From positions 1 to 40,578 of IMG/VR virus record IMGVR_UViG_3300021343_000065: a stretch of 40,578 bases of DNA; one strand, given 5' to 3'. Position numbers and translations under genes: made by a program. The notes beneath the pieces were generated by a model. It saw only the letters and a program-made list of their open reading frames with translations. It did not search any database and was not told the DNA's origin. Of the stretch, positions 9,534 through 40,578 are shown piece after piece. This DNA is from a virus. The first letter of the stretch is position 1, and every line of letters begins with the position of its first letter.

Positions 9534-9564
9534 TTAAGTATTAACCAGCTTTTGGGGGGCTATT

Positions 9565-9963: not shown

Positions 9964-9998
9964 AAAAGAATCAAGATTAATCAAGAGGTATTTGGCGC

Positions 9999-12012: not shown

Positions 12013-12107
12013 AACCTGCAACCGTTAGCGACCGGCGCAGACCACTTGACCCGCCCTGATAGGCTCCCGCGTGTGTATTGAACCCATGACCCACAAAGGA
12101 GCCGCCT

Positions 12108-12320
12108 ATGTGTATCAGCAGCCCAGACGCCCCCGATATGCCGCCACCGCCACCGGAACCCGAGAAAGCGGTGGACGCGGGCATCAAAAAGAGTCGCGCC
12201 AAAGACAAAGCCAGGGCGCTGTTAGCCTCCGGCCGCAGTAGCACCCTCTTAACCGGTGGCGGTACCTTCCGCAATACCGCGCAAGCCAACCTGGGCACCA
12301 AAACCCTGTTAGGACAGTAA
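12108..12320 (+). CDS. Small phage protein before the portal (70 aa)
   Basis: A 70-residue protein: MCISSPDAPDMPPPPPEPEKA, then a Lys/Arg helix and a Gly/Thr-rich end. The Met-Cys start and Pro run are typical of a small protein found before the portal in BPP-1-like podoviruses. AAAGGAG lies 7 bases before ATG. The 95-base gap upstream holds a TTGACC and a TGATAGGCT that recurs before the tail-spike gene. Function unknown; it may be a minor virion component. Confidence 0.75.
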   Translation: MCISSPDAPDMPPPPPEPEKAVDAGIKKSRAKDKARALLASGRSSTLLTGGGTFRNTAQANLGTKTLLGQ

Positions 12321-12323
12321 TCG

Positions 12324-13994
12324 ATGAGTATCGAACTCAAAGACCACCTGGAGGCCAGGCGCCGTGAGTTGGAGACTGACCGCTCCCACTTCCTTCAACA
12401 TTGGCGCGACCTGCAAGAAAACATCCTGGTGATGCGCGGGCAGTTCATGGTGAAAGAGCGCAACAAGGAGCCGCGCTTTACCAACATCGTCGACAACACC
12501 GGCACGATCTCGGCGCGTGTGCTGCAAAACGGGATGCAAGCGGGCATTACCTCGCCGGCGCGTCGCTGGTTTCGGATGCTGCCGCCGGACCCCGAGATGC
12601 GTGACTGGGGCCCGGTGAAGGTCTGGTTCCACGACGTGGAGAAACTGCTGTTTGAGATTTTCGGCCAGAGCAATTTCTATAACTCGCTCCACAAGTTGTA
12701 CGGCGAGGAATCCACCTTCGGCACCGGCGCGGTGGCGATGTTGCCCGACTTCGACAACGTGATACGGATGCAACACTTCACCGTTGGCAGTTATTGCATT
12801 GACACCAACGAGAAGGACCAGGTGGACACGCTCTACCGCAAGGTGCCGATGACGGTGCGTCAACTGGTGCGCCAGTTTGGCCTCAAGCATGTGAGCAATG
12901 CGGTGCGGCAGCTGTGGGACAAAAGCCAGTACTCGGAACTGGTCACTGTCTATCACGCCATTGAGCCCAACGAGGAGCGGGCGCCGGGCAAGCGCGACAA
13001 CCAGAATATGCCGTTTCGCTCGGTGTACTGGGAGGAGGGCGCCAACAAGGAAGAGTTCTTGAGCGTGTCGGGCTTCAAGCGTTTTCGCTGTATGGTGCCG
13101 CGCTGGGAGGTGATGGGCGCGAACACCTACGGCACCGGGCCGGGTTCTGTAGCGCTCGGTGATATCCGCCAGCTTCAGCTCGAGCAAAAGCGCAAAGCCC
13201 AGGCCATCGACAAGATGGTGGACCCGCCACTGACGGGACCGTCCTCACTGCGGGAAGAAGTGATCGATACTTTGCCCGGTGGCACCACCTGGCACGACGG
13301 TATCGATGGTCCTGGTGCGGGACTGCGCCCGGTGTACGAGGTCAACCCGCGCATCAATGAGTTGGCGCTGGATATCCGTGATGTCCAGGAGCGCATCAAG
13401 CGGGCCTACTACGAGGATCTGTTTATGATGCTCGCCAGCAGTGACCGCCGGGAGATTACCGCCAGGGAGATTGACGAGCGTCACGAGGAAAAGCTGCTCG
13501 GGCTCGGGCCCATGCTGGAGCGCTTGCACAACGAACTGCTCGACCCCTGTATCGACACTGCCTTTGAGTATGCGAGCGAGGCCGGCATTTTGCCGCCACC
13601 GCCGCCAGAGCTGCAGGGCCAGGAGATCTCGGTGGAGTACATCTCGGTAATGGCGCAGGCGCAGAAGATGGCCGGTACCGCCTCGATGGAGCGCTTTGTC
13701 TCTTTTGCCGGCAACCTGGCGGGCACCAATCCGGACGTGCTGGACAAGGTGGACTTCGACCAAACCGTGGACGAGTACGGCGACATGATGGGCGTGCCAC
13801 CGCGCATGATTCGCTCGGACGATCAGGTCGCGGCACTGCGCCAACAGCGCGCTCAGCGCGAGCAACAGGCCCAGGCCGCCATGGAGGCCAACCAGATGGC
13901 CGCCACCGCCAGCCAGGGCGCGCAGGCCGCCAAGCTGCTCAGCGAGGCCGACACCGGTAACGGCAACCTCTTAACCCAATTAACAGGAATGTAA
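12324..13994 (+). CDS. Portal (head-to-tail connector) protein
   Basis: A 556-residue protein of the podovirus head-tail connector family. Evidence: an N-terminal ELETDRSHFLQHWRDLQENI, an early conserved RVLQNGMQAGITSPARRWF segment (about residues 60-80), a central RCMVPRWEV-NTYGTGPG segment, and a helical C-terminal barrel region with AQAQKMAGT, ending in a Gln/Ala-rich coil. Twelve copies form the DNA channel at one capsid vertex. It starts four bases after the previous stop and sits in the normal order after terL. Confidence 0.93.
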   Translation: MSIELKDHLEARRRELETDRSHFLQHWRDLQENILVMRGQFMVKERNKEPRFTNIVDNTGTISARVLQNGMQAGITSPARRWFRMLPPDPEMRDWGPVKVWFHDVEKLLFEIFGQSNFYNSLHKLYGEESTFGTGAVAMLPDFDNVIRMQHFTVGSYCIDTNEKDQVDTLYRKVPMTVRQLVRQFGLKHVSNAVRQLWDKSQYSELVTVYHAIEPNEERAPGKRDNQNMPFRSVYWEEGANKEEFLSVSGFKRFRCMVPRWEVMGANTYGTGPGSVALGDIRQLQLEQKRKAQAIDKMVDPPLTGPSSLREEVIDTLPGGTTWHDGIDGPGAGLRPVYEVNPRINELALDIRDVQERIKRAYYEDLFMMLASSDRREITAREIDERHEEKLLGLGPMLERLHNELLDPCIDTAFEYASEAGILPPPPPELQGQEISVEYISVMAQAQKMAGTASMERFVSFAGNLAGTNPDVLDKVDFDQTVDEYGDMMGVPPRMIRSDDQVAALRQQRAQREQQAQAAMEANQMAATASQGAQAAKLLSEADTGNGNLLTQLTGM

Positions 13995-14276: not shown

Positions 14277-14594
14277 GTGAGCCAGTCAGAAACGTTTGAT
14301 GTTTACCAGGAAGACCGCGAAGCCATTGCGCAGCAAAAGGTCGCGCTGAAAACTGCGACGGATGCAGACGCCCAGGACCTGCGTGCAATTATGTCGCTGC
14401 CAGCGGGGCGGCGGTTTATCTGGCGGCTGTTAGAAACTACCCACCTGTACCAAACCAGTTTCGGCTTCGGCAATGACCGGGCCAATTACCTGGAAGGTGA
14501 GCGCAGCATAGGTGTCCAGCTCCTCGCGAAATTACACAAACATTGCTTCGAGCTGTATCAGCAGATGGAGCGCGAAAACAGGACAGCGACATGA
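14277..14594 (+). CDS. Bbp19-like phage protein
   Basis: A 105-residue helical protein with a GTG start (GGAG 9 bases upstream). The segment GRRFIWRLLETTHLYQTSFG, followed by ANYLEGERSIGVQLLAKL, matches the Bbp19-like domain known from Bordetella phage BPP-1. Its function is not established; its place between portal and scaffold suggests a role in head assembly. The stop overlaps the scaffold ATG as ATGA. A reading from 14190 in the same frame lacks an SD and overlaps the previous gene. Confidence 0.82.
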   Translation: MSQSETFDVYQEDREAIAQQKVALKTATDADAQDLRAIMSLPAGRRFIWRLLETTHLYQTSFGFGNDRANYLEGERSIGVQLLAKLHKHCFELYQQMERENRTAT

Positions 14595-15331
14595 GCCGAT
14601 TGCTTCAAAAACTTTTACACAACGCAGACCTTCTGCAAGACGAGATGCCCGGTGACGGCGGCGCCGGCGGTGGTGCCGAGGGTGGCCAGGGGGACGGCGA
14701 GCCCAGCGGCGGTGATGGCAGCAATGGTGGCGACGGCGGCCAGGAAGGCGGCGACGGCGCACATGGTGCTGAAGGCGGCCAGGAGGGCAGCGACGGTGGC
14801 GAAGGCGGAGAGGGTGGCGACGGTGGCGAGCTAGGCGCACCTGAAGCCTATGCGGACTTTACCCTGCCGGAAGGGGTAACCCTGCCCGAGACTCGCCTCG
14901 GTCAGCTCCACGAGTTTGCCAAGGCCAACAATTGGACCCAGGACCAGGCGCAAGCGGCGGTGGATCTCTACACCGAGTTGCAAACCGAGGACCTGCAAGC
15001 GCGTGAGCAATCCTGGGTAGACCAGGAGGCCATCTGGCACGACGAACTGAAAACTGATGCTGTGTTGGCCCGCGGCGGCAAGTTCGAAGAGAACCTGGGC
15101 GAGGCGGCAGGCATGTTGGACAAGCTTCAAGGCATGCTGGCCGAGGACTTTGGTGCCGAGGCCGGAGACATCAAGGACATGATGAACAAAACCCGCATGG
15201 GGAATAACCCCCTGATGGTGCGGGTGATGTACTCCCTCTCCAAGCGGTTCGGAGAGGACGGCATTGTGACTGCCAAAGGCGGCGGTAAACACACTGCTTC
15301 TCGTGAAGAAATTATGTACCCCAACTCATAA
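14591..15331 (+). CDS. Capsid scaffolding protein
   Basis: A 246-residue acidic protein. The N-terminus (MSRLLQKLLHNADLLQDEMP) is followed by a striking Gly/Asp/Glu-rich repeat tract at about residues 20-82. A helical region (LHEFAKANNWTQDQAQAAVDLY) follows and then a short conserved end. Acidic, helical, low-complexity proteins directly before the major capsid gene are normally scaffolds that guide prohead assembly. The repeat tract is built from GGC/GAC/GGT triplets and could vary in length by slippage. Confidence 0.85.
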   Translation: MSRLLQKLLHNADLLQDEMPGDGGAGGGAEGGQGDGEPSGGDGSNGGDGGQEGGDGAHGAEGGQEGSDGGEGGEGGDGGELGAPEAYADFTLPEGVTLPETRLGQLHEFAKANNWTQDQAQAAVDLYTELQTEDLQAREQSWVDQEAIWHDELKTDAVLARGGKFEENLGEAAGMLDKLQGMLAEDFGAEAGDIKDMMNKTRMGNNPLMVRVMYSLSKRFGEDGIVTAKGGGKHTASREEIMYPNS

Positions 15332-17725: not shown

Positions 17726-19899
17726 TGGGTATCGACTTAACACAGGCTACCTTTACCGCGGGAGAGCTGGCGCCCTCGTTGCACAAGCGGGCCGACCTGG
17801 CGCGCTACCGCGCCGGCCTCAAACTGTGCCAGAACTTTTTCATTCATCCCCACGGCGGCGTGTCGAACCGCACCGGCTATGAGTTCATTGTCGGGTGTCA
17901 GCACCCGAGCAAGCAAGCGCGCTTGATCCCGTTTAGCTTCAGCACCCAGGACACCTATATGCTGGAGTTTGGCCATTTGTACATGCGCGTGGTGCGCCAG
18001 GGCGGGCAGGTTTTGTTGCCCAGTGTGCCGGCGGATTATGACGGCGCCACCACCTACGCCATGGCGGACCATGTGGCGGTGGGCGGCAGTTATTACTATT
18101 CCCGCCAGGACAACAACACCGGCAATGCCCCTGGCGGCGCCTCCAGCCACTGGCACCGCTTGTCCGCTGATGTGGTGGAAATCCCCACCCCCTACACCGA
18201 AACCCAGCTGGCGCGCCTGGCGTTTGTGCAGTCGGCGGATATCATCACCCTGGTTCACCCCGAGCACCCGGTCAAGGAGTTGTCGCGTCTGGATCACCAC
18301 CAGTGGAAACTGGAGGATGTGAGTTTTAGCCCGCAAATCGCCACCCCCACCGGTCTCGATGTCACCAAGACCGGTACCGGCTCGGGGCGCGATTACAAGT
18401 ACAAGGTGACCGCAGTGGCAGCGGAAACCCTGGAGGAGTCGCTGCCCTCGGCGGAGACGTCCAAAAACCACACCAAGAGCCTGGACCAGGACAACTACAA
18501 CACGGTGACCTGGAACGCGGTGGCCGGCGCGGAAAAGTACTATGTGTACAAGGAGGAGAACGGGCTGTTTGGCTTTATCGGTATCACCGAGAGCACCAGC
18601 TTCCAGGATGACGGTTACAAGCCCGACCTCAGCGACACGCCCCCGCAGGACCGCAACCCCTTTGTCGGTGCCGGCAACTACCCCTCGACCGTGACTTATT
18701 ACGAGCAGCGCCTGGTCCTGGCGGCCACCCGCAATGACCCTGAGGCGATCTGGTTCAGCAAAACCGGCAATTTTCACAACATGAGTGTGTCGTCGCCGGC
18801 GAAAGACGATGACGCCATTACCGTGCGCCTGAACGCGGCCCAGGTTAACGAGGTGCGCCACCTGGTGCCCTTGTCTGACTTGGTGGCGTTGACCTCCGGT
18901 GCGGAATGGAAGATTACCTCGGGTGACCAGGCTTTTGCCTTTCCCAACATGAAGCGCAAACCCCAGGGGTTTCGCGGCAGCGCCAACCTGGAACCGCTGT
19001 TGATCGGCAACACGGTGCTCCACGTTACCCCTAAACAGTCCACGGTGCGCGACCTGTCCTACGCCCTGGAAAGCGACGGTTACGCGGGCCGCGATCTGTC
19101 GGTGATGTCGCGCCACCTGTTTGAGGGGTACTCGCTGGTGTCCTGGGCGTTTGCCGAGGAGCCCGACTCCATTGTCTGGGCGGTGCGCAGTGACGGTGTG
19201 TTGCTCGGTTTTACCTACATGCGCGAGCACGAGGTCTGGGGTTGGCACCAGCACCACACCGACGGCAAGGTGGAGGACGTGTGCGTGGTCAGTGAAGGCG
19301 ATGTCGATGCGGTCTACCTGGTGGTGAATCGCACCATTAACGGCAGCGAGCGGCGTTACATTGAGCGCCTGCGCAAGCGCGACTTTGCCGCGGTGGAGGA
19401 CTGCTTCTTTGTCGATAGCGGCTTGACCTATGACGGCGCCGCCACCGATTCGCTGAGCGGCCTGGAGCACCTGGAAGGCAAAACCCTGGTGGCACTGTGT
19501 GATGGGCATGTGGTGCGCAACCTGACGGTATCCGCTGGCGCGGTGAGCCTGCCCAGGGCCTACGCCAAGATCCATATCGGTTTGCCGTACCAAGCCAACC
19601 TGGAAACCCTGGAGCCACCGCTGGAGCAGGGCACGGTGAAGAAAAAGTCGGTCCCCAGGGTGACTGTCGCTGTCAGTCAATCCCGCGCCATCAAAGCCGG
19701 TCCCGACCAGGCCAACCTGGTGGAAGCCAAGCAGCGTTCGAACGAGCTATGGGGCGCGCCGATTGCCTTGCGCGACGGTGACTTCGAGGTGCCGATACCG
19801 GCGAGCTGGCAAAACAAGGGCTCGGTGTATTTGCGCCAGGATGACCCGCTGCCGTTGAGTATTTTGGCGGTCACACCGGAGGTGGTGGTCGGTGGATAA
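17725..19899 (+). CDS. Tail nozzle (tail tubular protein B-like)
   Basis: A 724-residue beta-rich protein starting MGIDLTQATFTAGELAPSL, with HKRADLARYRAGLKLCQNFF and HPHGGVSNRTGYEFIVG, the hallmark beginning of large podovirus nozzle proteins. A fibronectin-like insertion (about residues 205-310, with TYKVTAV-type strands) is visible. The remainder resembles beta-propeller repeats. ATG 17725 is chosen over an in-frame Met six codons upstream because of the TAATG overlap. It forms the tail tip channel below the adaptor. Confidence 0.9.
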   Translation: MGIDLTQATFTAGELAPSLHKRADLARYRAGLKLCQNFFIHPHGGVSNRTGYEFIVGCQHPSKQARLIPFSFSTQDTYMLEFGHLYMRVVRQGGQVLLPSVPADYDGATTYAMADHVAVGGSYYYSRQDNNTGNAPGGASSHWHRLSADVVEIPTPYTETQLARLAFVQSADIITLVHPEHPVKELSRLDHHQWKLEDVSFSPQIATPTGLDVTKTGTGSGRDYKYKVTAVAAETLEESLPSAETSKNHTKSLDQDNYNTVTWNAVAGAEKYYVYKEENGLFGFIGITESTSFQDDGYKPDLSDTPPQDRNPFVGAGNYPSTVTYYEQRLVLAATRNDPEAIWFSKTGNFHNMSVSSPAKDDDAITVRLNAAQVNEVRHLVPLSDLVALTSGAEWKITSGDQAFAFPNMKRKPQGFRGSANLEPLLIGNTVLHVTPKQSTVRDLSYALESDGYAGRDLSVMSRHLFEGYSLVSWAFAEEPDSIVWAVRSDGVLLGFTYMREHEVWGWHQHHTDGKVEDVCVVSEGDVDAVYLVVNRTINGSERRYIERLRKRDFAAVEDCFFVDSGLTYDGAATDSLSGLEHLEGKTLVALCDGHVVRNLTVSAGAVSLPRAYAKIHIGLPYQANLETLEPPLEQGTVKKKSVPRVTVAVSQSRAIKAGPDQANLVEAKQRSNELWGAPIALRDGDFEVPIPASWQNKGSVYLRQDDPLPLSILAVTPEVVVGG

Positions 19900-20359
19900 G
19901 GTCACCATAGCACCGGTGACCCCGGCGGATGTGGCGGAGTTGTTCGCCCATATTCGCCCGGTGGATCTGCAGGAGATTGCGGCCACCAGCTCACTGCCGC
20001 CGTTAGCGGCGCTGGTTAATAGCGTGCGCTTGTCCACCTATGCCTGGTCGGCGCGCATCAATGACCAGTTGCTGTGTGTGTTTGGCGTGGCGCCGGTGTC
20101 GGTGATCGCCGGTGTCGGAGCGCCCTGGTTGATCGGTACCGAGGCCATGGACGTGCGGCGCCATCGCTTGATTTTTGCCCGGCGCTGTGCGGCCCAGTTG
20201 CGACGGATGCAGGCGACCTTTCCCACCTTGAGAAACTACGCGGATGCGCGCAACCAGGTAACCCTGCGGTGGTTGTCCTGGTTGGGTTTTGAGATCCAGC
20301 CCGCCATCGTTTTTGGCGCCCAGGGCCGACTGTTTCATCCCTTTGAATTGAGGAGGTAG
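19892..20359 (+). CDS. T7 gp13-like virion assembly protein (GNAT-like)
   Basis: A 155-residue protein with GTG start and GGAGG about 9 bases upstream, overlapping the nozzle gene by 8 bases. It reads like the T7 gp13-type family: an N-terminal MDKVTIAPVTPADVAELFAH, a central GAPWLIGTEAMDVRRHRLIF, and RNYADARNQVTLRWLSWLGF, which is the acetyltransferase-like end motif. In T7, gp13 is needed for assembly of the internal core. No catalytic claim is made. Its position before gp14- and gp15-like genes supports the call. Confidence 0.83.
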   Translation: MDKVTIAPVTPADVAELFAHIRPVDLQEIAATSSLPPLAALVNSVRLSTYAWSARINDQLLCVFGVAPVSVIAGVGAPWLIGTEAMDVRRHRLIFARRCAAQLRRMQATFPTLRNYADARNQVTLRWLSWLGFEIQPAIVFGAQGRLFHPFELRR

Positions 20360-20361: not shown

Positions 20362-20838
20362 ATGTGTGTAGCCGCTCCGGTCGTCGCCATGGCAGCGACG
20401 GTGTTATCCGTCGGCATGGATGCCTATAGCAAGAACCAGCAGGGCAAGTACCAGCAGGGCGTGGCCAAGTACAACCAGCGCCTGTCGGAGATCCAGGCCG
20501 CCGACACACTGTTGCGCGGGCGCGAAGCCGCGGACAACCACCGCAAAGAGGTGAATCGCCTGGCCGGTACCCAGCGCGCCGCTATCGCCGCCTCCGGCTT
20601 TGATGTCGGTTACGGCTCGGCGTTTGAAACGGTCCAGGACACCTACACCCTGGGCGAAGAGGATGCCATCAAGATTGAAGATAACGCGGAGAAAACCGCG
20701 CAAAGCCATCGCCAGCAGGCGTCCCTCGATGGCCTCCAGGGCGATAACGCCTACGCCGCCGGTGTCAGTGGCGCGGGCACGTCCTTGCTCGCGGGCGCCG
20801 GTTCTGTCGCCAGTAAGTGGTACCAGTACAGGAGATAA
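20362..20838 (+). CDS. T7 gp14-like internal virion protein
   Basis: A 158-residue protein: MCVAAPVVAMAATVLSVGMDA is hydrophobic and may insert in membrane; a Gln/Lys-rich helix (KNQQGKYQQGVAKYNQR) and an AASGFDVGYGSAFE turn follow; the end is Gly/Ala-rich (AGVSGAGTSLLAGAGS). This is the T7 gp14-like pattern: core protein ejected into the outer membrane to begin the DNA channel. GAGGAGGTAGTA precedes the ATG. Confidence 0.83.
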   Translation: MCVAAPVVAMAATVLSVGMDAYSKNQQGKYQQGVAKYNQRLSEIQAADTLLRGREAADNHRKEVNRLAGTQRAAIAASGFDVGYGSAFETVQDTYTLGEEDAIKIEDNAEKTAQSHRQQASLDGLQGDNAYAAGVSGAGTSLLAGAGSVASKWYQYRR

Positions 20839-20840
20839 CC

Positions 20841-22556
20841 ATGCCCACGGTTCCGATTTACCAGGACGGTGGTGTCGTCACCACTGCGGTCCAGTCACCC
20901 AGGGCGAGCGGCGCGCTGCCACAAGGGGCTTACGGGGCTGACCTGGCCCGCGGTCTCAATGCCTTGGGCAACGTCGGTCACGAGATCGCGCTCGATCAAA
21001 AAAAGCTGGATGATGAGACCAAGGTCAAGGAGCGTGAAGTCGCCTATACCCGAGAGGTCCGAGACTTGCTCTACAACCCAGAGACCGGCTTTTACAACCT
21101 CAACGGGAAGCATGCCGTAGAGAGTCGCGCCGAGGTGAAGGAGAAACTGGAGAGCTTGCGCAGCAGTTATGCCGGCATGGCCGAGAATAACGCGCAAAAG
21201 CGCCTGTTCAATCACGCGCTTAACCTGCGCCATGAAAAAATGCTCGGCAGTATTGACTCTTTTGTCAGTCGCGAGCGCGAGTCCTGGCAGTTGGAGACGG
21301 CCAAGGCCCGAGCGGCGGAGCAGATGAGCCTGGCCCTGGACAATATCAACGACCCCAAAGCGCTGAAGCAATCCCTGGCCACCGGCCTGGCAGAGATCCA
21401 GGCCCAGGCGCGTCTCGCTGGTCTCTCTCCGGAAAGCGCGCAGCTGGCGGCGGCGCAATACCAGGACCGCTTTCACGCGGCCATTATCAGCTCCCTGATC
21501 ACCAATGACCGCGGCGCGGAGGCCGAGACTTACCTGGTCGCCAATGCCGACAACATCACCTCTGCAGCCAGGGACAAACTCAAAAAGGCCACCGAGCAGG
21601 CCGGTCGGCTCGGGCGCGTGCAAGCCCAGACCGACACCATTGTCGCCGGCGGTGGCTCGCTGTCGGAGATGCTGAGCCAGGCGCGAGCGATAGACGACCC
21701 CAAGGTGCGCAAGGATGTGGTCAGTGCGGTAAAGCTGCGCTTTAACGAGCAGCAAACCATTCGCAAATTCAACGAGCAGGAAACCCGCTTGAATGCGGTG
21801 CGCCATGTGTTGCAAGGGGGGGACCCCGACGCCATCAGCTTTGATGACCAGGCGACCTTGGGGCTGTCCACCATGAGTGGCCTGCGCAGCTACGCGGCCA
21901 AACTCGCCTCTGGGGAATTTGAGCCCGCCGATAACAAGCGCTACCTGGCATGGAAAAACCAGGCACTGCGGCCCGAGACCCGGCAGAACTTCCTCGACAT
22001 GAACTTCCTGGAGGATGGCGAATACCAGCGCCTGGGGACGCGCAACGTCGAGAAGTTAATTGCGTTACAGCAGAGCATGTTAAATGCCGAGGCGGCCAAG
22101 GACGCGGCGCTGCAAGCGAAAATCAACAAGTCCCAGAAAGCACAGCAGGACGCCTTCAGCAAGATGCTCGCCGGCAGTGTGTCACAAGCGCAGAAGCTCG
22201 GTGGCAAGATCCTTAGCGATATGAAACTGGACAAGGACTCCGAGGAGGCAATTGCCTTTCAGGTGGCGCTGGAGGAGGCGATCCACGAGCAGCGCCTGGC
22301 CACCGGTGAGGACCTGACACAAACCGAAATGAACGATCTCGCCCAAAGCCTACTGCAAGAGGTGGTGATCCAGGAGGGGCTGTTCAGTGACACCACCGCC
22401 CTGGTTCAAGACCTGCCGCGACCGGCGGGGGCCACCGCCTATGACATGGCGCGCATGGCGCAGATCCTGGAGCGCAGCAACAAACCACTGACAGAGGAGT
22501 CATTTGGCAAATTGTGGTCCGTGATTGAACAAGCAAAGAAACATCGGGGTGAGTAA
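20841..22556 (+). CDS. Internal virion core protein (gp15-like)
   Basis: A 571-residue, mostly helical protein starting MPTVPIYQDGGVVTTAV. Long heptad-rich segments run through the protein (for example QKKLDDETKVKEREVAYTR and AQTDTIVAGGGSLSEML). No enzyme motif is visible. Place and length between gp14-like and the giant ejection protein fit an internal core protein like T7 gp15, which crosses the periplasm. ATG 20841 has AGGAGATAACC upstream; an earlier in-frame start overlaps the previous gene and is weaker. Its stop overlaps the next ATG as TAATG. Confidence 0.82.
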   Translation: MPTVPIYQDGGVVTTAVQSPRASGALPQGAYGADLARGLNALGNVGHEIALDQKKLDDETKVKEREVAYTREVRDLLYNPETGFYNLNGKHAVESRAEVKEKLESLRSSYAGMAENNAQKRLFNHALNLRHEKMLGSIDSFVSRERESWQLETAKARAAEQMSLALDNINDPKALKQSLATGLAEIQAQARLAGLSPESAQLAAAQYQDRFHAAIISSLITNDRGAEAETYLVANADNITSAARDKLKKATEQAGRLGRVQAQTDTIVAGGGSLSEMLSQARAIDDPKVRKDVVSAVKLRFNEQQTIRKFNEQETRLNAVRHVLQGGDPDAISFDDQATLGLSTMSGLRSYAAKLASGEFEPADNKRYLAWKNQALRPETRQNFLDMNFLEDGEYQRLGTRNVEKLIALQQSMLNAEAAKDAALQAKINKSQKAQQDAFSKMLAGSVSQAQKLGGKILSDMKLDKDSEEAIAFQVALEEAIHEQRLATGEDLTQTEMNDLAQSLLQEVVIQEGLFSDTTALVQDLPRPAGATAYDMARMAQILERSNKPLTEESFGKLWSVIEQAKKHRGE

Positions 22557-25500
22557 TGCCGACTGAGTTAGACCCGTTTGAAACCATGGCCGATGAATTT
22601 CTGCAATCCACTGAAGCGCAAGTCATCACCGACACGACACCCGAGGAGGTTGATCCCTTCGAGCAGATGGCCACGCAATTCGTACGTGAGGAGGAAAACC
22701 AGCTCAAGGCCAATGTGTATACCGGCATGGAGGCGCAGCCCGACAACCACGCCAAGGCGCTGAAGCTGTCTACTCGCGTGGGTTTACCTTCGGCGTATGT
22801 GCTGGAGAATATGCCGGCGGTGGAGCGCCAGGACATCTACGCGCAGATCGACTTTGCCAAGCTGTTGAGCGAGAACAAAGCAGTGGCGCAATACCTGGGT
22901 GTACCGGACAACGCCAAGATTTCCCACGACGATATCGAAGGCCTGTCTGCCATTGAGAATATGTTGCGCGGTGGCGGCGAGCGCATGAGAACCTTGGGTT
23001 CCAACCTGATCCAGTTTATAGCCAATACCGCCGATGCGGGTGAGGATGTGCTCGCGGATTTGACCGGGATTAACCCTGGAGTCTACTGGGATGATGACGG
23101 TCTCCACTGGAGTTGGAATCTGCCCACGGGTTCTGACACTAGCCTGGCGGCAGCGCTGCGTGATGGGGCCGAGGTGAACGCGGGCGACCTGGGCTACCAG
23201 CAGAACTTTACCTGGGAACGGCTGAAGGGCGATCTGACGGTCAAGAATTTGGCTGGCTATATCGTAGAGCAGGGCGTTCAGTCTGTGCCGGATATGGTGG
23301 CCGCATTGATGACCTTACCGGCCTATATCGCCTCGCGCACCGAGGAAATTGCTGAGACCCGCGTAGAGAATGACAATCGTGAGCGTGTTAGCGGCAGCGA
23401 CCTGTCGGTGTCTCTGATTCCCGCAGTATTCATCTCCGCACTCGAGCGTATCGGTGTTCAGGGGATTATCAATCCGGTCATTACCAAAGGTCTGACCTCT
23501 ACCGCGGGGCGCCGTATCCTCACTGCCGGGGCCAAAGAGGCGGCCACTGAATTTGTCCAGGAGAACATCGAATATGCCGCGGGCACGGTGGGCACAGCTA
23601 AGGGCTACGACCTTGCCGCGGGCCTTGACCAAGGCTTCGCCGGCGCGGTCGCTGGCGGCGGCATGGGGGCTGGCGGCAGAACCCTAATTGAAGGGGCCAA
23701 CGCAGTGGCCGCACTTCGGCATCGCGAGCAGTTGCGCGAGCTGGGCGAGGCCGTGCGCCAGTCGAAAACCTTCGAGCGCCACAAGGATAAGCTGGTGGAG
23801 TTTATGCAATCGGTGGACGATGGCAATGTGTTCCTGGATGCCGGTACCGCTCGCACCTTCTTCCAGGCCAACGGTGAAGACCCGGATGCGGTATTCGAAG
23901 CCCTGGGTGTCACTGAGCAGGTAAGCCAGGCGGAGGAGCGCGGCGCGGATATCGCCATTCCTTCGGCCAAATTGATGGGCATGGCGGACCAGCCCTGGTT
24001 TGACGATATCTTGATGGATGTGCGCCAGGACCCCGGTCAGATGACCGCACGCGAGGCGGAGCTGGCCAGGACCCAGTTGGCCGAGCAGTGGGAAGCGGAA
24101 GCTGATCGGGTGCTGGAGCAGCAGGCGGAGAATAACGCCTTCCAGGAATCGGCTTACCAGGTGCGCCAGTCGGTGTATGACAACCTGGTGGAAACCCAGC
24201 GCTTTGACGACACCACGGCGGATGCCTACGCCAGCCTGTGGGAATCGTTCTTTGTCGCCATGGCCGACCGCTCCGGCACGTTGCCCCATGAGCTGTTTGC
24301 CCAGTACTACGCCACCACGACCACCCCAGACCAACAGTTCCAGGATCTGGTGGGCGGTGTTCGCAGTGTGCAACGCGGGGAGTACCCCAAACAGCGCGAG
24401 ATCTTCGGGGCGTCACTGGCCGAGTGGCTGGCGGATCGCGGCGGTGTGCGCGATGACGGCGGCGAGCTGGCGGCCATGGACCTGGAGCTGTGGCACCACG
24501 GCAAACCGGGACAGCGGCGGCTGGTGAGCGAGGAGGGCGATACCCTGGACGGTGCGGCCCAGGCGGCACAAGAGGCCGGTTACCTGACGGTACCCTATGA
24601 AGAGGTGACCCCGCGCCACCTGCTGGATGCGCTCAACGCGGAGATGGCAGGCGACCCGACCTACAGCGAAGCCAACCTCAATCTGGATCTTCTAAACCGC
24701 CAGGATTGGCTAGAAAGCATCGCTCGTGAAATGGAGTCGATGGAGGAGTTGGCCGAGAATGCCGACCCAACGGATATTGCCTTAGCTCTGAGTGAGAGCG
24801 ATGGCTCCGCCTTGTTTCAATCGGGTGTGCCCAAGGCCAACGATCATGTGAAGGCGCGGGTGGAGACGGACTTTGAGGCCCTGGCGTCAGAAGATTTGAT
24901 TGCCCGGGTGAGCGAGCACGAGGGCACGGCCTGGGCGCGGGAAGTGAAAAAAGGCGTGATCTACCGCGATGAGATCGTGCGGGTGGCCGAGGGCGAGCTC
25001 GCCGCAGTGGATGCGGTGGCGCTGCAAAACTCCGGCAAGCTGGCCCGCCTCCTCGAGGAGAAAGGCTGGGAGGGCGCCTGGGAATACCTAGCCCAGGGCG
25101 ATGTTATTGGCAGTGCGGCCAAACCGGTTCATGCGGTGAACTCCTCGCTGCAGAACTGTCGCCCCTCCAAGGACTGCGCCAAGTACTGTTACGCCTGTAA
25201 GGGCCGCCACGCTTACCCGGCCTCGAAAACCAAGGCCGAGCTGGTGGACTTGATGGCCGAGCGCGACCCAGATCGCCTGGGCGATATGATCGCTAAAAGC
25301 TTTAGATCTCCAGACCGGGCTGGCCTGCACTGGCGCGATACGGCGCTGCGCCTGTTTGATATCGGTGATGGCACACCGGCCTGGAACCGGGTGATTGATC
25401 GACTTAATGCCAAGGGTATCCGTACCCACGTCTTCTCGAAAAACCCCGAGTTTTTGGCGAACATGGACGAGCGCAATGTGCGTCTGTTGTCACTGGACAA

Positions 25501-28500
25501 AACCAACGAGCAACTGGCCGAGGATAATGACCTGCCGGTGGCCATGGTCTATGATGGTACCAGGGATGTGGAGGTCCTGGAGCAGCTGGGCGATCGTGTC
25601 CAGGTGATCCTGCCGGTAGTGGAGAATGGCAAGCTGCTCTCCGGTGACGAGATCGACGCCATCCCGAAAAAGTTCGACAAAGCGCTGTGTCCGATTGATG
25701 CGGGCAAGGCGAAACTGGACAACTGGAACTGCCTGAACTGCGACAAAACCAAAAGCGGGCAGGGTTGCCTGAATGGCCAAAAAACAGGCGTCAACCACTT
25801 TGGTGGCGTTAAGGCCGCTAGGCGGCAACAGAAAGATTCTTTTGAGCGAGTAGCGCAAGAGGTTAAAACCCTAGATGACATCCAAGAAATCAAACAAGAC
25901 CTCCTCCGCCAGCTTGCCGAACTCGAAGCCCAAGAGAACCAGTTTCAGCAAGATAACGGACCAGCTGTTGATAATGACCGAGGAAATGCCCAGGGACGAA
26001 GCGCTGGAAGTACTGGCGGAGTCCAAACAGTTGATCCTCAAAGCGCTGGAGCAGCTGGAAGCCAAGGAGAAAACCCTGAAGGGTTAATCGCCACTGACCG
26101 CGAGTACTCCCAGAATCGTCGCGGCAGTAAAGGTCACCGCGGTAAAATCACACTTCCTGCCGGCGGCGTTCGCGATGGCCGCTCGGTCATTACCCTGTTT
26201 GACAATGCCGACCTCTCCACCTTTCTTCACGAATCGGGTCACTTCTTCCTGGAAGTCTACCGCGATATGTCCACGCGGGAGGATGCGCCGGAGACCATCA
26301 AGCAGGACATGGCGCAGCTGTTGGCGTGGTTTGGGGTGGAGTCGGTGGCGCAGATTGACGTGGAGCAGCACGAGCAATTTGCCCGCGGCTTTGAAGCCTA
26401 TCTGCGCGAGGGCAAGGCCCCGAGTGTGGGCCTGCGCGCGGCCTTTGAGCGTTTCAGTGCCTGGTTAAAGCACCTGTACAAGTCGATTCGCAATCTCAAT
26501 GTGGACCTCACTGATGAGGTGCGCGGGGTGATGGATCGCATGTTGGCCACCGACGCGGCGATTGAGAATGCTCGTCAGTCCACCGACCTGTTCCCCATGT
26601 TTGACGACGCCGAGTCTGCGGGCATGACGGAAGCGGAGTTCAACGCCTATCGGGCATCCTACGAAAAGGCGCGGGTGGAGGCCGAGAGCGATCTGCGCTC
26701 CAAGATGATGTCGGAGATGTGGCGCGAGACCCAACGCGCTTGGCGCATGGAGAAAAACCAGCTGCGGGACCAGTTCCTGGAAGGGTTGATGGAGCAGCCG
26801 GTGTACCAGGTGCGGCGCTACCTGACCGAGGCCGAGCCCCATGGCAAGCTCTCGTTGCCGGCGCTCAAGGCACTCTACGGCACCGGGCCGGAGGCGCCCT
26901 GGCGCAAGCTGCCGTTCGGCAGTCACGCCCTGGCTGGCAACGACGGCGGCACCGATCCCCAGCAACTGGCGGAGCTGTTTGGCTTCCGCTCGGGCGATGA
27001 AATGGTGCGGGCGATGGTGGAGGCGGGCAACCCCAAAGCCAAGGCCCTGGCGATGGCGGAAGCAGAAATGCGCCGTTTGCACGGTGATATTTCCGGTGAA
27101 GTGAATCAGGCAGCGCAGGCGGCCATGGACGCACTCCACGCCAACGATACCGCCAGTTTCCTCACCACCGAGCTGAGGGTGATGGAGCGCAAGGCCGGTC
27201 TGGAACCTACCCTGAAAGACTCTGCCAAGAACGCGGCACGGCGCATACTGGCCGGTTTGCAGGTGGGCAATCTCCAGGAATACCAGTACCTGATGGACGA
27301 GCAGCGCCACGGCAAGGCGGCGATTCAGGCGACGGCGGCGGGTGACTTCGCCGCAGCGGCGGATGCCCAACGCAAGCGCTTGCTGGCGCACTACCTGTAT
27401 CTGGAAGCGCGCAAAGCCAAGGAGGAAATCGAGAAGGGGCGCAAGTACTTCACCAAGTTTGAGCGTGCCAATACGCGCAAGAGTTTGGAGCGCTATCACC
27501 TCGACCAGATCGACGCCATCCTCGAGGCATACTCGTTCAAGAAGTCGGTCACCTTCAAAGAGGCCAACGAGCGTCAACGCCTGGCCGAGTGGATCGCCGA
27601 GCAGGAGGACCAGGGCATGGAGGTGGTGGTGGACCCCGCCATCCTGGAGAAAGCCCGTTCGCGTCACTACAAAACCCTGACCCTGGAAGCGTTCCGCGGA
27701 CTGCGCGACGCGGTAAAAAACATCGAGCACCTGGCGCGTTTGCAGCAACGGCAAATTGACGAACGCAACAAGCAGGCCTTTAAGGATCTGGTGGCGGACC
27801 TGAAAGAGGAGGCCAAGGCCAACAACACCTTGAAACCCGAGCCAATCGAATTCGACAACACCGGCAAGTGGCATCAGCTGAAAAAATGGGGCCAGTGGTT
27901 GCTGGCCTCGCACATGAAAATGGAATTCCTGGCCACTCGGCTCGACGGCGAGAAGACCAACGGCAAGTGGTGGAACGCGATTATCCGCCCGCTGGCGGAC
28001 GCGGCGGACAAAGAGCAGCAGATGCAAGAGATGGCCACCGCCAAGCTCAACGAGGTGTTTGGTCGCTTCAGCAAAGCGGATCGTCGTTCCTGGCACACCA
28101 ACAAGTTTGCCATCGATGTGCTGGGCATACCTGACGCCAATAAGTCGATGGTGTTTTCCATTGCGCTTAACTGGGGCAACGAGGGCAACCGCCAGGCATT
28201 AATGCAAGGTTATGGCTGGGAGCGCGAGAATGTGGAGGCGGCACTCAACCGCTATATGACCGCCGAGGATTGGCGCCTGGTGCAGGATATCTGGGGCCAT
28301 ATCGACAGCTACTGGCCGCAGATCGCCGAGCTGCAAAAAGACCTGACCGGTGTGGTGCCGGAGCAGGTGGAGCGCTCGCCGTTTGTGACCGACCACGGCG
28401 AGATGGCCGGCGGTTACTTCCCCCTGGTGTATGACCCCGAGAAAAACTGGCTCGCCGGCATTCGCGAAGAGAAAAACGACGTCAAGGAGATGTTCGGCGG

Positions 28501-29827
28501 CAACCATCTGCGGCCCTCGACCCGAAAAGGTCACACCAAGGAGCGGGTGGGTTCCGGCGGGCAAAAGGTGCGCCTCGATGTGGCGGTGGTGTCGGAGCAT
28601 ATCACGGCGGTGATTCACGACCTCACTCACCGCAAGGCCATCCTGGAGATTGACCGCCTCACGCAAAACGAGGAGATCCGCAACACCATCTCGCGCATTG
28701 CCGGTACCGAAGTGGTGAAACAGATTCGCCCCTGGTTGGCGAACATTGCCAAGGACAGCCGACCGAAAGACATTATCAACCCGTTGGCGCCGGCGGTGGG
28801 CAAGCTGCGCCGCGGCGCAACGGTGGTCAATATGGGCTGGAAGTTCACCACCGCCATTGTGCAACCCCTGGGCTATTTCCAGTCGGTGGAGCTGCTGGGG
28901 GCCAAGTGGGCGCTGAAAGGTCTGGCGCGTTTTTACGGCAATCCCCTCAATGCCGTGAAGATGAAGGACATGGTGTTCGAAAAATCCACCATGATGCGCA
29001 ACCGCAACAAGACCTTCGACCGGGATGTGCGCGACTCCATTAACGCCATCAAGGGCAACAGCGCACTGGATAACCTGGAGCGCACCTATTTTGCCCATAT
29101 CGGCTTTATGGATCTGTCGGTGTCGATTCCCACCTGGATTGGCGCCTATGAAAAATTCCTGGCCGAGGGCATGGAGGAGGCGGACGCGGTGGCCAACGCC
29201 GACCGCATTGTGCGCATGTCGCAGTCTGCCGGTGGTGCCAAGGACCTGGCCGGCATTCAGCAGGGCGACGAGATCAAGCGCGCCTTTGTGATGTTCTACT
29301 CCTATTTTTCGGTATTGCACAACCTGCTGCGTCGTCGTGGCAGCATGGCCAGGCGCGAGGGGGTGAGTGCGGAAAGTGTCGCCAAGACCACCATGTCAGC
29401 GCTCTACCTGCTGGTGCTGCCGGCGGTGCTGACGGAATTGGTCTTGGGCCGGGGACCGGAGGAAGACGAGGACGAGGAGTTTTTGCCCTGGGCGCTGAAG
29501 CTGTCTGCCTCTTACCCGGCCTCGACCGTGGTCGGGCTGCGGGATGCGGTCAACTACTGGAGCACCGGCTATTCCTACTCCGCCTCACCGGTGGGCAACG
29601 CCATCGAGGAGACCGCCAAGGCGGGCTCGGCGGTGTACGACCAACTCTTTGATGAGGACAAGGAGTGGGACCGCGGCGATAACAAACACCTGTTCCTGAG
29701 TGCGGGTTACTGGCTGGGCCTGCCAACGCGGCAGTTGTGGATCTCCGGCGAGCACCTGTACTCGGTATTGAACGACGAGGAGGAATTCAGCTTTTACGAG
29801 TTCCTGTACCGCAACCGGCGCGACTGA
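22556..29827 (+). CDS. Giant polyvalent/internal virion protein with HESGH motif and inserted Cys-rich domain
   Basis: A 2423-residue protein in the T7 gp16 position, expected to be ejected with DNA. N-terminal acidic motif DPFExMAxxF occurs twice. Hydrophobic Gly/Ala-rich segments at about 230-400 could form a channel. Residues about 860-1080 carry two Cys clusters (C868, C874, C878, C881; C1045, C1059, C1062, C1071) with NCRPSKDCAKYCYACKG, resembling phage gp88-like proteins. H1225-E-S-G-H1229 follows (ADLSTFLHESGHFFLEVY), an HExxH metallopeptidase-like motif common in large polyvalent proteins. Long coiled coils and a C-terminal helical domain (about 2080-2423, SQSAGGAKDLAGIQQGDEI) resemble LPD38-type ends. 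No lysozyme motif is seen. The Cys-rich part appears to be an insertion at residues about 756-1194. Confidence 0.85.
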   Translation: MPTELDPFETMADEFLQSTEAQVITDTTPEEVDPFEQMATQFVREEENQLKANVYTGMEAQPDNHAKALKLSTRVGLPSAYVLENMPAVERQDIYAQIDFAKLLSENKAVAQYLGVPDNAKISHDDIEGLSAIENMLRGGGERMRTLGSNLIQFIANTADAGEDVLADLTGINPGVYWDDDGLHWSWNLPTGSDTSLAAALRDGAEVNAGDLGYQQNFTWERLKGDLTVKNLAGYIVEQGVQSVPDMVAALMTLPAYIASRTEEIAETRVENDNRERVSGSDLSVSLIPAVFISALERIGVQGIINPVITKGLTSTAGRRILTAGAKEAATEFVQENIEYAAGTVGTAKGYDLAAGLDQGFAGAVAGGGMGAGGRTLIEGANAVAALRHREQLRELGEAVRQSKTFERHKDKLVEFMQSVDDGNVFLDAGTARTFFQANGEDPDAVFEALGVTEQVSQAEERGADIAIPSAKLMGMADQPWFDDILMDVRQDPGQMTAREAELARTQLAEQWEAEADRVLEQQAENNAFQESAYQVRQSVYDNLVETQRFDDTTADAYASLWESFFVAMADRSGTLPHELFAQYYATTTTPDQQFQDLVGGVRSVQRGEYPKQREIFGASLAEWLADRGGVRDDGGELAAMDLELWHHGKPGQRRLVSEEGDTLDGAAQAAQEAGYLTVPYEEVTPRHLLDALNAEMAGDPTYSEANLNLDLLNRQDWLESIAREMESMEELAENADPTDIALALSESDGSALFQSGVPKANDHVKARVETDFEALASEDLIARVSEHEGTAWAREVKKGVIYRDEIVRVAEGELAAVDAVALQNSGKLARLLEEKGWEGAWEYLAQGDVIGSAAKPVHAVNSSLQNCRPSKDCAKYCYACKGRHAYPASKTKAELVDLMAERDPDRLGDMIAKSFRSPDRAGLHWRDTALRLFDIGDGTPAWNRVIDRLNAKGIRTHVFSKNPEFLANMDERNVRLLSLDKTNEQLAEDNDLPVAMVYDGTRDVEVLEQLGDRVQVILPVVENGKLLSGDEIDAIPKKFDKALCPIDAGKAKLDNWNCLNCDKTKSGQGCLNGQKTGVNHFGGVKAARRQQKDSFERVAQEVKTLDDIQEIKQDLLRQLAELEAQENQFQQDNGPAVDNDRGNAQGRSAGSTGGVQTVDPQSAGAAGSQGENPEGLIATDREYSQNRRGSKGHRGKITLPAGGVRDGRSVITLFDNADLSTFLHESGHFFLEVYRDMSTREDAPETIKQDMAQLLAWFGVESVAQIDVEQHEQFARGFEAYLREGKAPSVGLRAAFERFSAWLKHLYKSIRNLNVDLTDEVRGVMDRMLATDAAIENARQSTDLFPMFDDAESAGMTEAEFNAYRASYEKARVEAESDLRSKMMSEMWRETQRAWRMEKNQLRDQFLEGLMEQPVYQVRRYLTEAEPHGKLSLPALKALYGTGPEAPWRKLPFGSHALAGNDGGTDPQQLAELFGFRSGDEMVRAMVEAGNPKAKALAMAEAEMRRLHGDISGEVNQAAQAAMDALHANDTASFLTTELRVMERKAGLEPTLKDSAKNAARRILAGLQVGNLQEYQYLMDEQRHGKAAIQATAAGDFAAAADAQRKRLLAHYLYLEARKAKEEIEKGRKYFTKFERANTRKSLERYHLDQIDAILEAYSFKKSVTFKEANERQRLAEWIAEQEDQGMEVVVDPAILEKARSRHYKTLTLEAFRGLRDAVKNIEHLARLQQRQIDERNKQAFKDLVADLKEEAKANNTLKPEPIEFDNTGKWHQLKKWGQWLLASHMKMEFLATRLDGEKTNGKWWNAIIRPLADAADKEQQMQEMATAKLNEVFGRFSKADRRSWHTNKFAIDVLGIPDANKSMVFSIALNWGNEGNRQALMQGYGWERENVEAALNRYMTAEDWRLVQDIWGHIDSYWPQIAELQKDLTGVVPEQVERSPFVTDHGEMAGGYFPLVYDPEKNWLAGIREEKNDVKEMFGGNHLRPSTRKGHTKERVGSGGQKVRLDVAVVSEHITAVIHDLTHRKAILEIDRLTQNEEIRNTISRIAGTEVVKQIRPWLANIAKDSRPKDIINPLAPAVGKLRRGATVVNMGWKFTTAIVQPLGYFQSVELLGAKWALKGLARFYGNPLNAVKMKDMVFEKSTMMRNRNKTFDRDVRDSINAIKGNSALDNLERTYFAHIGFMDLSVSIPTWIGAYEKFLAEGMEEADAVANADRIVRMSQSAGGAKDLAGIQQGDEIKRAFVMFYSYFSVLHNLLRRRGSMARREGVSAESVAKTTMSALYLLVLPAVLTELVLGRGPEEDEDEEFLPWALKLSASYPASTVVGLRDAVNYWSTGYSYSASPVGNAIEETAKAGSAVYDQLFDEDKEWDRGDNKHLFLSAGYWLGLPTRQLWISGEHLYSVLNDEEEFSFYEFLYRNRRD
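25974..26087 (+). other. Alternative-frame coding-like stretch inside the polyvalent gene
   Basis: In the +1 frame relative to the main gene, 37 codons from ATG 25974 read MTEEMPRDEALEVLAESKQL and on to a coiled-coil end, whereas the main frame here is a poor Gly/Gln/Ser/Asn-rich linker. The frame is open from 25875 (70 codons). It may be an overprinted gene or the old C-terminus of the inserted Cys-rich protein before a frameshift fused it. Confidence 0.4.
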
Positions 29828-33235: not shown

Positions 33236-33280
33236 ATGGCTGAGCGTACCGTTTTAATACTTTGTGGGGATTGCTTATGA
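33236..33280 (+). CDS. Possible 14-residue upstream peptide
   Basis: AGGAG lies 9-10 bases before ATG 33236, which opens a 14-codon frame (MAERTVLILCGDCL) ending in TGA at 33278-33280, overlapping the next ATG (33277). It may be a coupling leader or the remnant of a lost small gene. Confidence 0.3.
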   Translation: MAERTVLILCGDCL

Positions 33281-34128
33281 ATCTGATCGGTCTGGGTATC
33301 GGGATCGCGACACAGGTTGTGGGTATGGCAGCCAGCGCCAGTCCGGATCTGGAAATTACCCTGCGCACCACCACTGCCAGTGAAAGCGTCACCATCCCCA
33401 CGGCTGGCACTGTCGCCTACAACTGCTCGGTGGACTGGGGGGATGGCTCTGCCGTGGGCAACTACTCGGGTACGACGCCGGTCATCTCGCACACCTATGC
33501 CAGCGCGGGGGATTACGAGGTAACCATTACCGGCGATTTTCCGCGGTTCGACTACTACCTGTCCGGTTTCGAGTCCACGCTGGTGGCCATACGCAATTGG
33601 GGCAACACCCTGTTTGACGATATGAAGTCGGCTTTCAGGGGCTGCGTTAACCTGGTGGTTTCCGCCACTGACGCGCCCAACCTGGATGCGGGCTGTTCCC
33701 TCTATCGGGCATTTCGCGGTTGTACATCGTTGACTACGGTGGACTTCAGCCAATGGGACGTAAGCATGATTGCCGACTTTGGGCAGATGTTCCGAGATTG
33801 CAGCGGCATTACCAGTATCGACCTGAGCGGCTGGGATATGCTCGCCGCCACCTCACTGGCGTCAATGTTCCAAGACTCCACCGCCGACCCAGACCTTAGC
33901 GCCTGGGATATCCGTAATGTGACGGATATGTCCCAGTTCTTTGGCAACACCATCAGCCTGAGCACGGCCAATTACGATGCGATGCTGATCGCCTGGGCAG
34001 CACTGCCGGTGCAAAGTGGCATAGCAGTGAACTTCCACAACACGCAATACACCTCGGCAGCAGCCTCTGCCAGGAGCACGTTAACCGGGACGCACTCTTG
34101 GTTGATCACAGATGGCGGCCAGGTTTAA
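33277..34128 (+). CDS. DUF285/BspA-like repeat protein of the tail module
   Basis: A 283-residue protein. It starts MNLIGLGIGIATQVVGMA (hydrophobic) and has a beta-sandwich/PKD-like part (VDWGDGSAVGNY; HTYASAGDYEVTITGDF) at about 55-85. Several leucine-rich-like repeats follow with the DUF285 pattern: MFRDCSGITSIDLSGWDM, then SMFQDSTADPDLSAWDI. Such repeats are surface-binding modules. It follows the lyase gene and precedes lysis, so a receptor-binding or fibre-cap role is plausible. ATG 33277 overlaps the stop of a 14-codon frame; the open frame continues 15 bases upstream without SD. Confidence 0.72.
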   Translation: MNLIGLGIGIATQVVGMAASASPDLEITLRTTTASESVTIPTAGTVAYNCSVDWGDGSAVGNYSGTTPVISHTYASAGDYEVTITGDFPRFDYYLSGFESTLVAIRNWGNTLFDDMKSAFRGCVNLVVSATDAPNLDAGCSLYRAFRGCTSLTTVDFSQWDVSMIADFGQMFRDCSGITSIDLSGWDMLAATSLASMFQDSTADPDLSAWDIRNVTDMSQFFGNTISLSTANYDAMLIAWAALPVQSGIAVNFHNTQYTSAAASARSTLTGTHSWLITDGGQV

Positions 34129-39483: not shown

Positions 39484-40578
39484 ATGACTGAAAAGTACAA
39501 GCTGATTGATTTGTTCTGCGGTGCAGGCGGAATGACATTGGGGTTTGTTGATGACCGCTACTGCGGTCTCTTTGAAAGTATATTTGCAATCGATAATGAT
39601 GAGGCAGCAGTTAAAACCTACAATGCAAATTTTAGCGAAAACGATCACTGTGTGCATGGAAATATCGAAGATTGGTTGCGTCTCGGTAGTGTCCCGAAGG
39701 CTGACATAGTCATCGGAGGTCCCCCATGTCAAGGCTTCAGTCTCCTAAACAAAAATCGAGACGGAGATTCTCGCAGGGCTTTGTGGGAACCATATATGGA
39801 TATTGTCAAGAGGTCTGGAGCATCTATATTCGTTATGGAAAATGTTCCTGGCCTACTTAAGAGCCCTGAATTCCTAGATATAATTGAGCGTGCACATAAA
39901 ATGGGTTTTAACATGCTACAACCTGCTGTTTTGAATACAGCAGATTATGGTGTTCCTCAAACACGGAAGCGCGCGATAGCCATAGGTATTAAGAAATCAG
40001 CTTTTACGCGGAGCTCTTTACCGGAGTTCCCACCCGCCCCTAGTCATCGGTCTCCTGATGTGACCTCGGATCTCCCATTGTGGAGAACTGTAAAAGAGTT
40101 CATTGATGACTTGCCCCGGCGTCCCAAAGGGGTCGAAGTTAGGGGAGATGAGCCTGCACCTTTAAATCTACACTTCGGTCGAAAACCAACTGACGTTAGC
40201 AAAGAACGCTATAAGGCAGTGCCTCCCGGAGGAAACCGCTTTGATCTGCAAAGAAATAGGCCAGACATAACACCTCAATGCTGGATTAATAAAAAGTCAG
40301 GAGGGACAGACCTATTCGGAAGGTTGTGGTGGGATCGTCCATCAGTAACTATTCGAACAGAATTCTTTAAACCGGAAAAAGGCCGATATCTGCATCCATC
40401 CGCAAACAGGCCAATTACTCACCGAGAGGCTGCTCGATTAATGTCCTTCCCGGACGATTTTGAATTTACAGGCAGCAAGATTGAAATCGCTAGGCAGATT
40501 GGTAATGCTGTACCTCCGATATTTGCCGGTCGAATGGCACACTTTATTGTGAGGTTTCGGCAAGCATCAGTGACGTAG
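39484..40578 (+). CDS. DNA (cytosine-5) methyltransferase
   Basis: A complete 364-residue m5C methyltransferase that methylates cytosine at C5 using SAM. Visible motifs: I DLFCGAGGMTLGF (9-21), IV GGPPCQGFS with catalytic Cys82, VI MENVPG (118-123), VIII QTRKRAIAIG (159-168), and IX/X THREAARLMSFPDDF with RQIGNAVPP near the end. The short target-recognition region lies about 170-300. The stop TAG is the last codon of the window. No restriction enzyme is seen in the window; it could be solitary (phage or host) or have a partner beyond the edge. Its AT-richer codons resemble the cargo genes rather than the virion genes. Confidence 0.94.
   Translation: MTEKYKLIDLFCGAGGMTLGFVDDRYCGLFESIFAIDNDEAAVKTYNANFSENDHCVHGNIEDWLRLGSVPKADIVIGGPPCQGFSLLNKNRDGDSRRALWEPYMDIVKRSGASIFVMENVPGLLKSPEFLDIIERAHKMGFNMLQPAVLNTADYGVPQTRKRAIAIGIKKSAFTRSSLPEFPPAPSHRSPDVTSDLPLWRTVKEFIDDLPRRPKGVEVRGDEPAPLNLHFGRKPTDVSKERYKAVPPGGNRFDLQRNRPDITPQCWINKKSGGTDLFGRLWWDRPSVTIRTEFFKPEKGRYLHPSANRPITHREAARLMSFPDDFEFTGSKIEIARQIGNAVPPIFAGRMAHFIVRFRQASVT

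Follow-up and report, generated by a model that had tools for sequence, protein, structure and literature searches.

Why would a giant phage protein be interrupted by a cysteine-rich domain? The question arises from a single metagenomic viral contig of 40,578 bases (IMG/VR virus record IMGVR_UViG_3300021343_000065, all of which we analyzed and call the window). It encodes a giant polyvalent (bbp10-like) protein of 2423 amino acids, in an uninterrupted open reading frame (ORF; 22556..29827, + strand). We propose, with a probability of roughly 82%, that residues 756-1186 of this protein are a mobile payload cassette of the GP88 family, which occupies a slot of bbp10-like proteins between LFQ755 and YSQ1186, just 5' of a metallopeptidase with the HExxH motif. 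The segment is an insertion whose edges can be located, and its module has been exchanged between unrelated proteins. The slot accepts several payloads, and a hydrophobic-x-Gln seam is common to them.

The protein has exactly eight cysteines (868, 874, 878, 881, 1045, 1059, 1062, and 1071). All eight lie in this segment, in the two clusters that a first-pass annotation of the window had noticed. The probability that all of them would land in 431 of 2423 residues by chance is about 1e-6. The first cluster is C868-x5-C874-x3-C878-x2-C881 (CRPSKDCAKYCYAC; 25157..25198; this and all other features within the giant gene are on the + strand), and its fourth cysteine is not conserved. The second cluster (C1045, C1059, C1062, and C1071; 25688..25768) is invariant in nine relatives of the module.

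The same annotation suggested that the segment was a gp88-like domain, and this is borne out by Pfam. Scored alone, the segment matches GP88 (PF17338) with E = 1.7e-5 and 25.2 bits, and the trimmed module scores 25.9 bits; the curated cut-off is 24.4 bits. With the whole 2423-aa protein as the query, the score is under the cut-off (21.5 bits), so the significance of the match derives from the segment by itself and from its relatives. In an alignment of 36 members, the segment has both cysteine clusters of GP88, the first of them followed by CYA. With the founder of the family, gp88 of mycobacteriophages D29 and L5, it shares both clusters, CYA, FRxxxxGD, TK/SK, and the C-terminal CP, CxxC, and C. 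However, D29 gp88 is a solo protein of 240 amino acids, while the window's version lies within 2423 amino acids and includes a strand block (DRVQVILPV) that is absent from D29 gp88. The cassette as a whole (24821..26113) comprises N-terminal helices, the GP88-like core, and a coiled, Q- and G-rich linker. Compared to bare gp88, the helices (about 90 residues) and the linker are extra. The idea that a whole foreign protein was fused in is supported, but the insert is not simply gp88. We also considered base composition as an argument for recent arrival and rejected it, because the difference in GC content is too small (58% for the module vs. 60.5%).

When we compared the whole protein to phage records (tblastn), 58 records matched, and none of the matches spanned the segment. 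The segment alone had no match among phage and plasmid records with tblastn. Similarly, of 77 backbone proteins that we retrieved from IMG/VR via the peptidase region, one contained GP88. An alignment of eight phages reveals a variable slot. Its left flank reads ADPTDIALALSESDGSALFQ in the window, and on the right the HExxH metallopeptidase starts (RGKITL, then NADLSTFLHESGHFF). The flanks adjoin directly in the Pseudomonas phages DIW6 (AVRFDQ|TEDGARGFIQF) and HU1 (VQLDQ|TGAPREPRGYITF), and there are also direct joins in locus L240 (DILFQ|GGAAPRGQIQI) and in Mel-JY33 (PLFQ|GQRGKIVLP). So LFQ (753-755) and RGKITL (which starts at 1195) do adjoin in the family, as had been guessed from the window's sequence. 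Relatives without the segment exist and the segment has independent homologues, which is on both counts the opposite of what the first-pass annotation had said would speak against an insertion.

From the seams, the junctions in the window are best placed at Q755 and Q1186. The left seam (LFQ; 24812..24820) is at the homologous position to FDQ and LDQ of the empty relatives DIW6 and HU1. The right seam (YSQ, residues 1184-1186; 26105..26113) is at the site of a conserved hydrophobic-x-Gln ahead of the peptidase. The left edge is where it was originally proposed. The right edge had been put at 1194, but empty/filled comparisons place the entry of cassettes at the Gln seam, so we prefer an insert that is eight residues shorter. 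The edges of the module in BLASTP and its AlphaFold2 (AF2) model were also used to define the cassette. Limnohabitans phage DC33 (L045; PQ492659.1) is filed under Inoviridae, yet it has a 39-kb genome and a bbp10-like protein of 3125 amino acids, so its taxonomy line looks wrong.

Other backbones have other domains in the slot or in the adjoining variable region. These include PBECR5 in Cobetia phage Carin1, LPD23 in Pseudomonas phage AF, a weak match to GNAT in CP2, and ART (ART-PolyVal) in JessA. Locus L034 has ART, and L036 has ART, GP88, and a weak match to ASCH. A search for domains in the slot of HU1 recognized none. In bbp10 of Bordetella phage BPP-1 (phrog_9880), which has the same backbone as the window and likewise follows internal virion proteins and a bbp11-like lysozyme, the variable region contains the nuclease-like domain PBECR1 instead of GP88. 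At this site, immediately 5' of the HExxH metallopeptidase, bbp10-like polyvalent proteins have a slot for cassettes.

In nearly all backbones, a hydrophobic residue, any residue, and Gln stand directly ahead of the metallopeptidase (LFQ, LYQ, FYQ, LNQ, FDQ, or LEQ). Three pairs of empty and filled slots indicate that cassettes enter exactly at this Gln. First, DIW6 and L239 have AVRFDQ|T/A-EDGARG, while L184 has ASRYAQ|(insert)KLEQ|ATGDDSGPRG. Second, the L240 group has GDILFQ|GGAAPRG, while L241 has GDILFQ|PTRTDE(insert)PFFQ|SSEAAPRG; L244 is similar. Third, L034 has EYNQG|ATVNRG, while L037 has EYNQG|NIVPLS(insert)TFDQG|AAVNRG. The insert in L037 (residues 1508-1996; ORF 6809-13588) is a 480-residue cassette with the motif HEIQHA, flanked by EYNQG and TFDQG, which is absent from its near twin L034; the junctions share ACCAAGG in their DNA.

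To quantify the seam, we counted the motif [LFYMIV][FYND]Q in intervals of 40 residues across 63 distinct backbones. It is present at −65 to −25 from HExxH in 49 of the 63, and in 2-21 of the 63 for thirteen other intervals. Inside slots, the motif is 2.5-fold enriched relative to shuffled sequences, or 4.4-fold if it is followed by Gly, Ser, or Ala, and downstream of the peptidase it is below expectation (0.68-fold). It is enriched in the N-terminal third as well, which is partly due to one conserved FFQ/LFQ/YFQ site, so global counts of the motif would by themselves be misleading. We also tried to use backbones without HExxH as a control for the link between peptidase and seam. The sample offered no such control: the backbones that the pattern HExGH had failed to match proved to have HExxH after all, with Ala or Ser where Gly had been expected.

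What is the seam for? The Gln seams might be protease sites at which the payload is released, either inside the head or once it is in the host, with the adjacent zincin or the prohead protease doing the cutting. We consider this a real possibility, at somewhat worse than even odds. Alternatively, the seam might not be cleaved at all: it could be a conserved strand, the first of the peptidase domain, along with a flexible linker that tolerates insertions, with recombination eased by short shared DNA. This has not quite an even chance. It fits with the fixed homologous place of the terminal seam and with the 7-8 bp that the junctions of L034 and L037 share (ACCAAGG and ACCAAAGC). Against it stand the enrichment within slots and the depletion 3' of the peptidase, as well as the recurrence of the motif at the inner joins of slots with several cassettes (VLFQSE, FFQSGK, and LFQSAS). 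Also, the Gln is retained while the adjacent residues and the codons (CAA or CAG) vary, which favors selection at the protein level.

We next consider what the module might do. The AF2 model of the window's module, which was built from nine sequences, has a pLDDT of 74 and shows an N-terminal helical region and then beta-alpha repeats. The model of D29 gp88 (36 sequences; pLDDT 92.8, pTM 0.89) has four parallel beta-alpha units. For both models, the neighbors in the PDB are TIM-barrel-like, and the radical-SAM enzymes DesII, QueE, and SpeY are scattered among them. Entry 7bi7, which we take to be NifB, is also among the fold neighbors. The models are partial barrels, and all radical-SAM entries among the matches have E values above 0.03. 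Searching PDB sequences with profiles produced chance-level matches only, and PADLOC reported nothing. Among predicted viral structures, the nearest are GP88, Gp37/Gp68-like, and DUF7227 proteins, and the next include several proteins annotated as radical SAM or Fe-S (iron-sulfur) oxidoreductases, with probabilities of 0.2-0.77. DUF5131 (phage Gp37/Gp68) and DUF7227 are separate Pfam families from GP88, but both have fold matches with a probability of 1.0. There are sequence matches as well: of the 36 GP88 members, 6 match DUF5131 (best E = 0.0024) and 8 match DUF7227 (best E = 4.6e-7), and every scanned member matches GP88 too.

Among the 36 GP88 proteins, there is little or no variation at the first and third cysteines and at the four C-terminal ones. 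Of the residues in D29 gp88 that are equivalent to the second cluster, C202, C223, and C226 are invariant and C220 is at least 90% conserved. Other invariant polar residues lie beyond the clusters (RxxDxGD, SK, and SxDxxN). GP88 resembles the radical SAM superfamily in having a cysteine loop ahead of beta-alpha repeats and in having several of its members as fold neighbors. It differs in that the conserved spacing is CX5CX3C, not CX3CX2C. (The window does have CAKYCYAC, but the last Cys, at 881, is not conserved.) Noncanonical cysteine spacings exist among radical-SAM proteins. Since the conserved cysteines depart from the canonical spacing, we propose a metal-cluster enzyme and treat radical-SAM chemistry as just an option. 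Based on the models and the conservation, the seven conserved cysteines probably hold metal. The enzyme core would be a half-barrel, and the metal would most likely be in an iron-sulfur cluster or a pair of them; radical-SAM-type chemistry is less likely than not.

The cysteines could instead bind structural zinc, in which case the module would be a nucleic-acid- or protein-binding domain and not an Fe-S enzyme. The second cluster does look like a zinc ribbon, and there are weak matches to L37ae and zf-CXXC. On the other hand, the invariant polar residues outside the clusters suggest a catalytic pocket, some GP88 members have weak matches to Fer4, and the oxidoreductases mentioned above are among the fold neighbors from phages. 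On balance, a zinc-binding role seems rather unlikely.

Where else does the module occur? Scans with the segment as a single sequence found nothing in IMG/VR or in GTDB genomes, and a scan of GTDB genomes with a two-sequence alignment found nothing either. The first relative came from scanning IMG/VR for the motif CxxxCYACKG, and alignment-based scans then raised the total to 11 loci. The module lies in bbp10-like proteins at L032, L033, L034, L035/L036, and L037, in other giant proteins at L027 (with RadC and ART) and L028 (with an ART-like stretch), and in an 806-aa protein at L029-L031. Pfam's GP88 matches all nine of the aligned modules, and the match held up when the records for L027, L028, and L029 were searched independently in six frames. 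Solo GP88 genes are common: D29 gp88 has at least 582 matches in viral contigs and 376 in phage records.

Within the bbp10-like family, a FastTree of 94 backbones has the GP88 carriers spread over four distinct lineages. Five changes were counted on this tree, but the fifth involves L216, whose backbone is identical to that of L032; we set it aside because the L216 record ends before the slot. Between L029 and L036, identity is 66.5% across the 400-aa module, and there is no other similarity. In L034 and L037, a block of 684 amino acids with ART and GP88 is 97.4% identical, while the upstream parts are just 40% identical. The cassette moves between proteins: GP88 is present in four lineages of the backbone and also in three unrelated proteins.

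Could GP88 instead be ancestral to the family and lost from most relatives, with no insertion? The carriers do include distant lineages of one backbone, and the site is always identical. However, many losses would be needed across the 63 distinct backbones. Shared ancestry of the backbone also does not account for otherwise unrelated proteins that are alike in the module, for a nearly identical block between diverged flanks, or for the empty and filled pairs that other cassettes form at the same seam. We consider an ancestral GP88 very improbable. The record is one metagenomic viral contig, but there is a negligible chance that the insert is an assembly chimera or a sequencing artefact, as the reading frame is intact throughout and other contigs have the same module in the same slot (L032, L033, L034, L036, and L037).

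The surroundings of GP88 differ elsewhere. In the giant polyvalent protein at L027 (5081-15520), the repeated linker around the modules is another one, with DLFASGG before GP88 and DLFAPSG after it, and L028 has the linkers DIRFSQS and DIRFT; other lineages may use their own seam peptides. In Streptomyces phage Cross (L012:2700-3729), the solo GP88 gene overlaps a gene for a ParB-like nuclease, possibly a sign that the role of GP88 has to do with nucleic acids.

If the segment is a payload cassette, how would it be delivered? The giant protein matches phrog_9880 outside the segment (E = 0; the best stretch is residues 1187-2416). It has an LPD22 domain (residues 53-146; 22712..22993; Pfam E = 3.6e-20), and the HExxH motif of the zincin-like metallopeptidase, immediately 3' of the slot, is HESGH (26228..26242), which is retained in the backbones compared. 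Backbone homology and conserved gene order both place the protein in the bbp10-like group, and the combination of unrelated domains (LPD22, GP88, and HExxH) in one large chain, with other payloads in relatives, is that of a polyvalent protein. The genes are in the order portal, protease, major head protein, two tail proteins, two internal virion proteins, lysozyme-like protein, giant protein, and tail fibre, as in phage BPP-1, where bbp10 is the homologue of the giant protein. The genes just upstream of the giant protein, all on the + strand, encode the internal virion proteins (19892..20359, phrog_308, E = 4.1e-37; 20362..20838, phrog_418, E = 2.5e-33) and the bbp11-like virion lysozyme/endolysin (20817..22556, phrog_10475, E = 4.9e-26). 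Judging from the gene order and family, the giant protein is likely packaged and ejected with the DNA.

In the mechanism we have in mind, the giant protein would be packaged as one of the phage's internal proteins and would enter the host by ejection together with the DNA. The cassette enzyme, free or tethered, would act during the earliest minutes of infection, ahead of phage gene expression. The Gln seam is a candidate site for processing of the chain by the built-in metallopeptidase. The neighboring prohead protease is an alternative: the gene immediately 5' of the major head protein gene (14543..15331, + strand; phrog_458 "protease", E = 1.5e-33) encodes a rival candidate enzyme for cutting seams. 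Phages would swap cassettes as hosts or defenses change. More broadly, bbp10-like ejected proteins might be plug-in carriers of payloads, with iron-sulfur (possibly radical-SAM-like) GP88 cassettes exchanged at Gln seams that are also where the metallopeptidase cleaves to free them. Taken as a whole, this picture is speculative.

Some observations weigh against our interpretation. The FastTree of backbones has long branches, including the window's. Structure prediction gave the beta-alpha repeats and barrel-like neighbors described above, but neither model has a fold match to solved structures at E = 0.001, and none of the 36 GP88 members match a radical-SAM family in Pfam. With just three residues, the seam motif gives weak evidence of cleavage by a protease. 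Finally, PMC5512222 describes the virion RNA polymerase of phage N4, which is likewise polyvalent and contains a metallopeptidase, as being packaged unprocessed.

Polyvalent proteins and their mosaic make-up were already known (Iyer et al. 2017, PMC5512222). The window's protein shares with them the giant multidomain chain, LPD22, the HExxH metallopeptidase, and interchangeable payloads (ART and PBECR). Iyer et al. also proposed autoproteolysis, in which the metallopeptidase processes the chain; the passages on autoproteolysis in PMC5512222 state no cleavage motif, and its main text does not name GP88, iron-sulfur, or radical-SAM domains. We found nothing on PF17338, DUF5131, or a Gln seam in the open-licence literature. 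Relative to that literature and the main text of PMC5512222, GP88 as a payload and an explicit seam with empty/filled pairs appear to be new. Public databases do list large proteins named "Gene product 88 domain-containing", so the fusion had been annotated before, although to our knowledge it was undescribed. The seam turns the idea of polyvalent-protein processing into a testable rule (three residues that end in Gln), and it may allow many giant proteins to be split into payloads from sequence alone. The cassette adds a probable metal-cluster enzyme to the payloads that phages may bring in before transcription starts, and its context gives a clue to GP88, a family that is widespread but unexplained.

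Elsewhere in the window, an ORF similar to DNA methyltransferases (39484-40578; phrog_116) reaches the window's end, and its match begins at position 205 of the 779 in the profile, so part of this gene may be missing from the contig. A 288-aa protein (33262-34128) resembles parts of very large phage proteins of unassigned function (phrog_22899 and phrog_17273).

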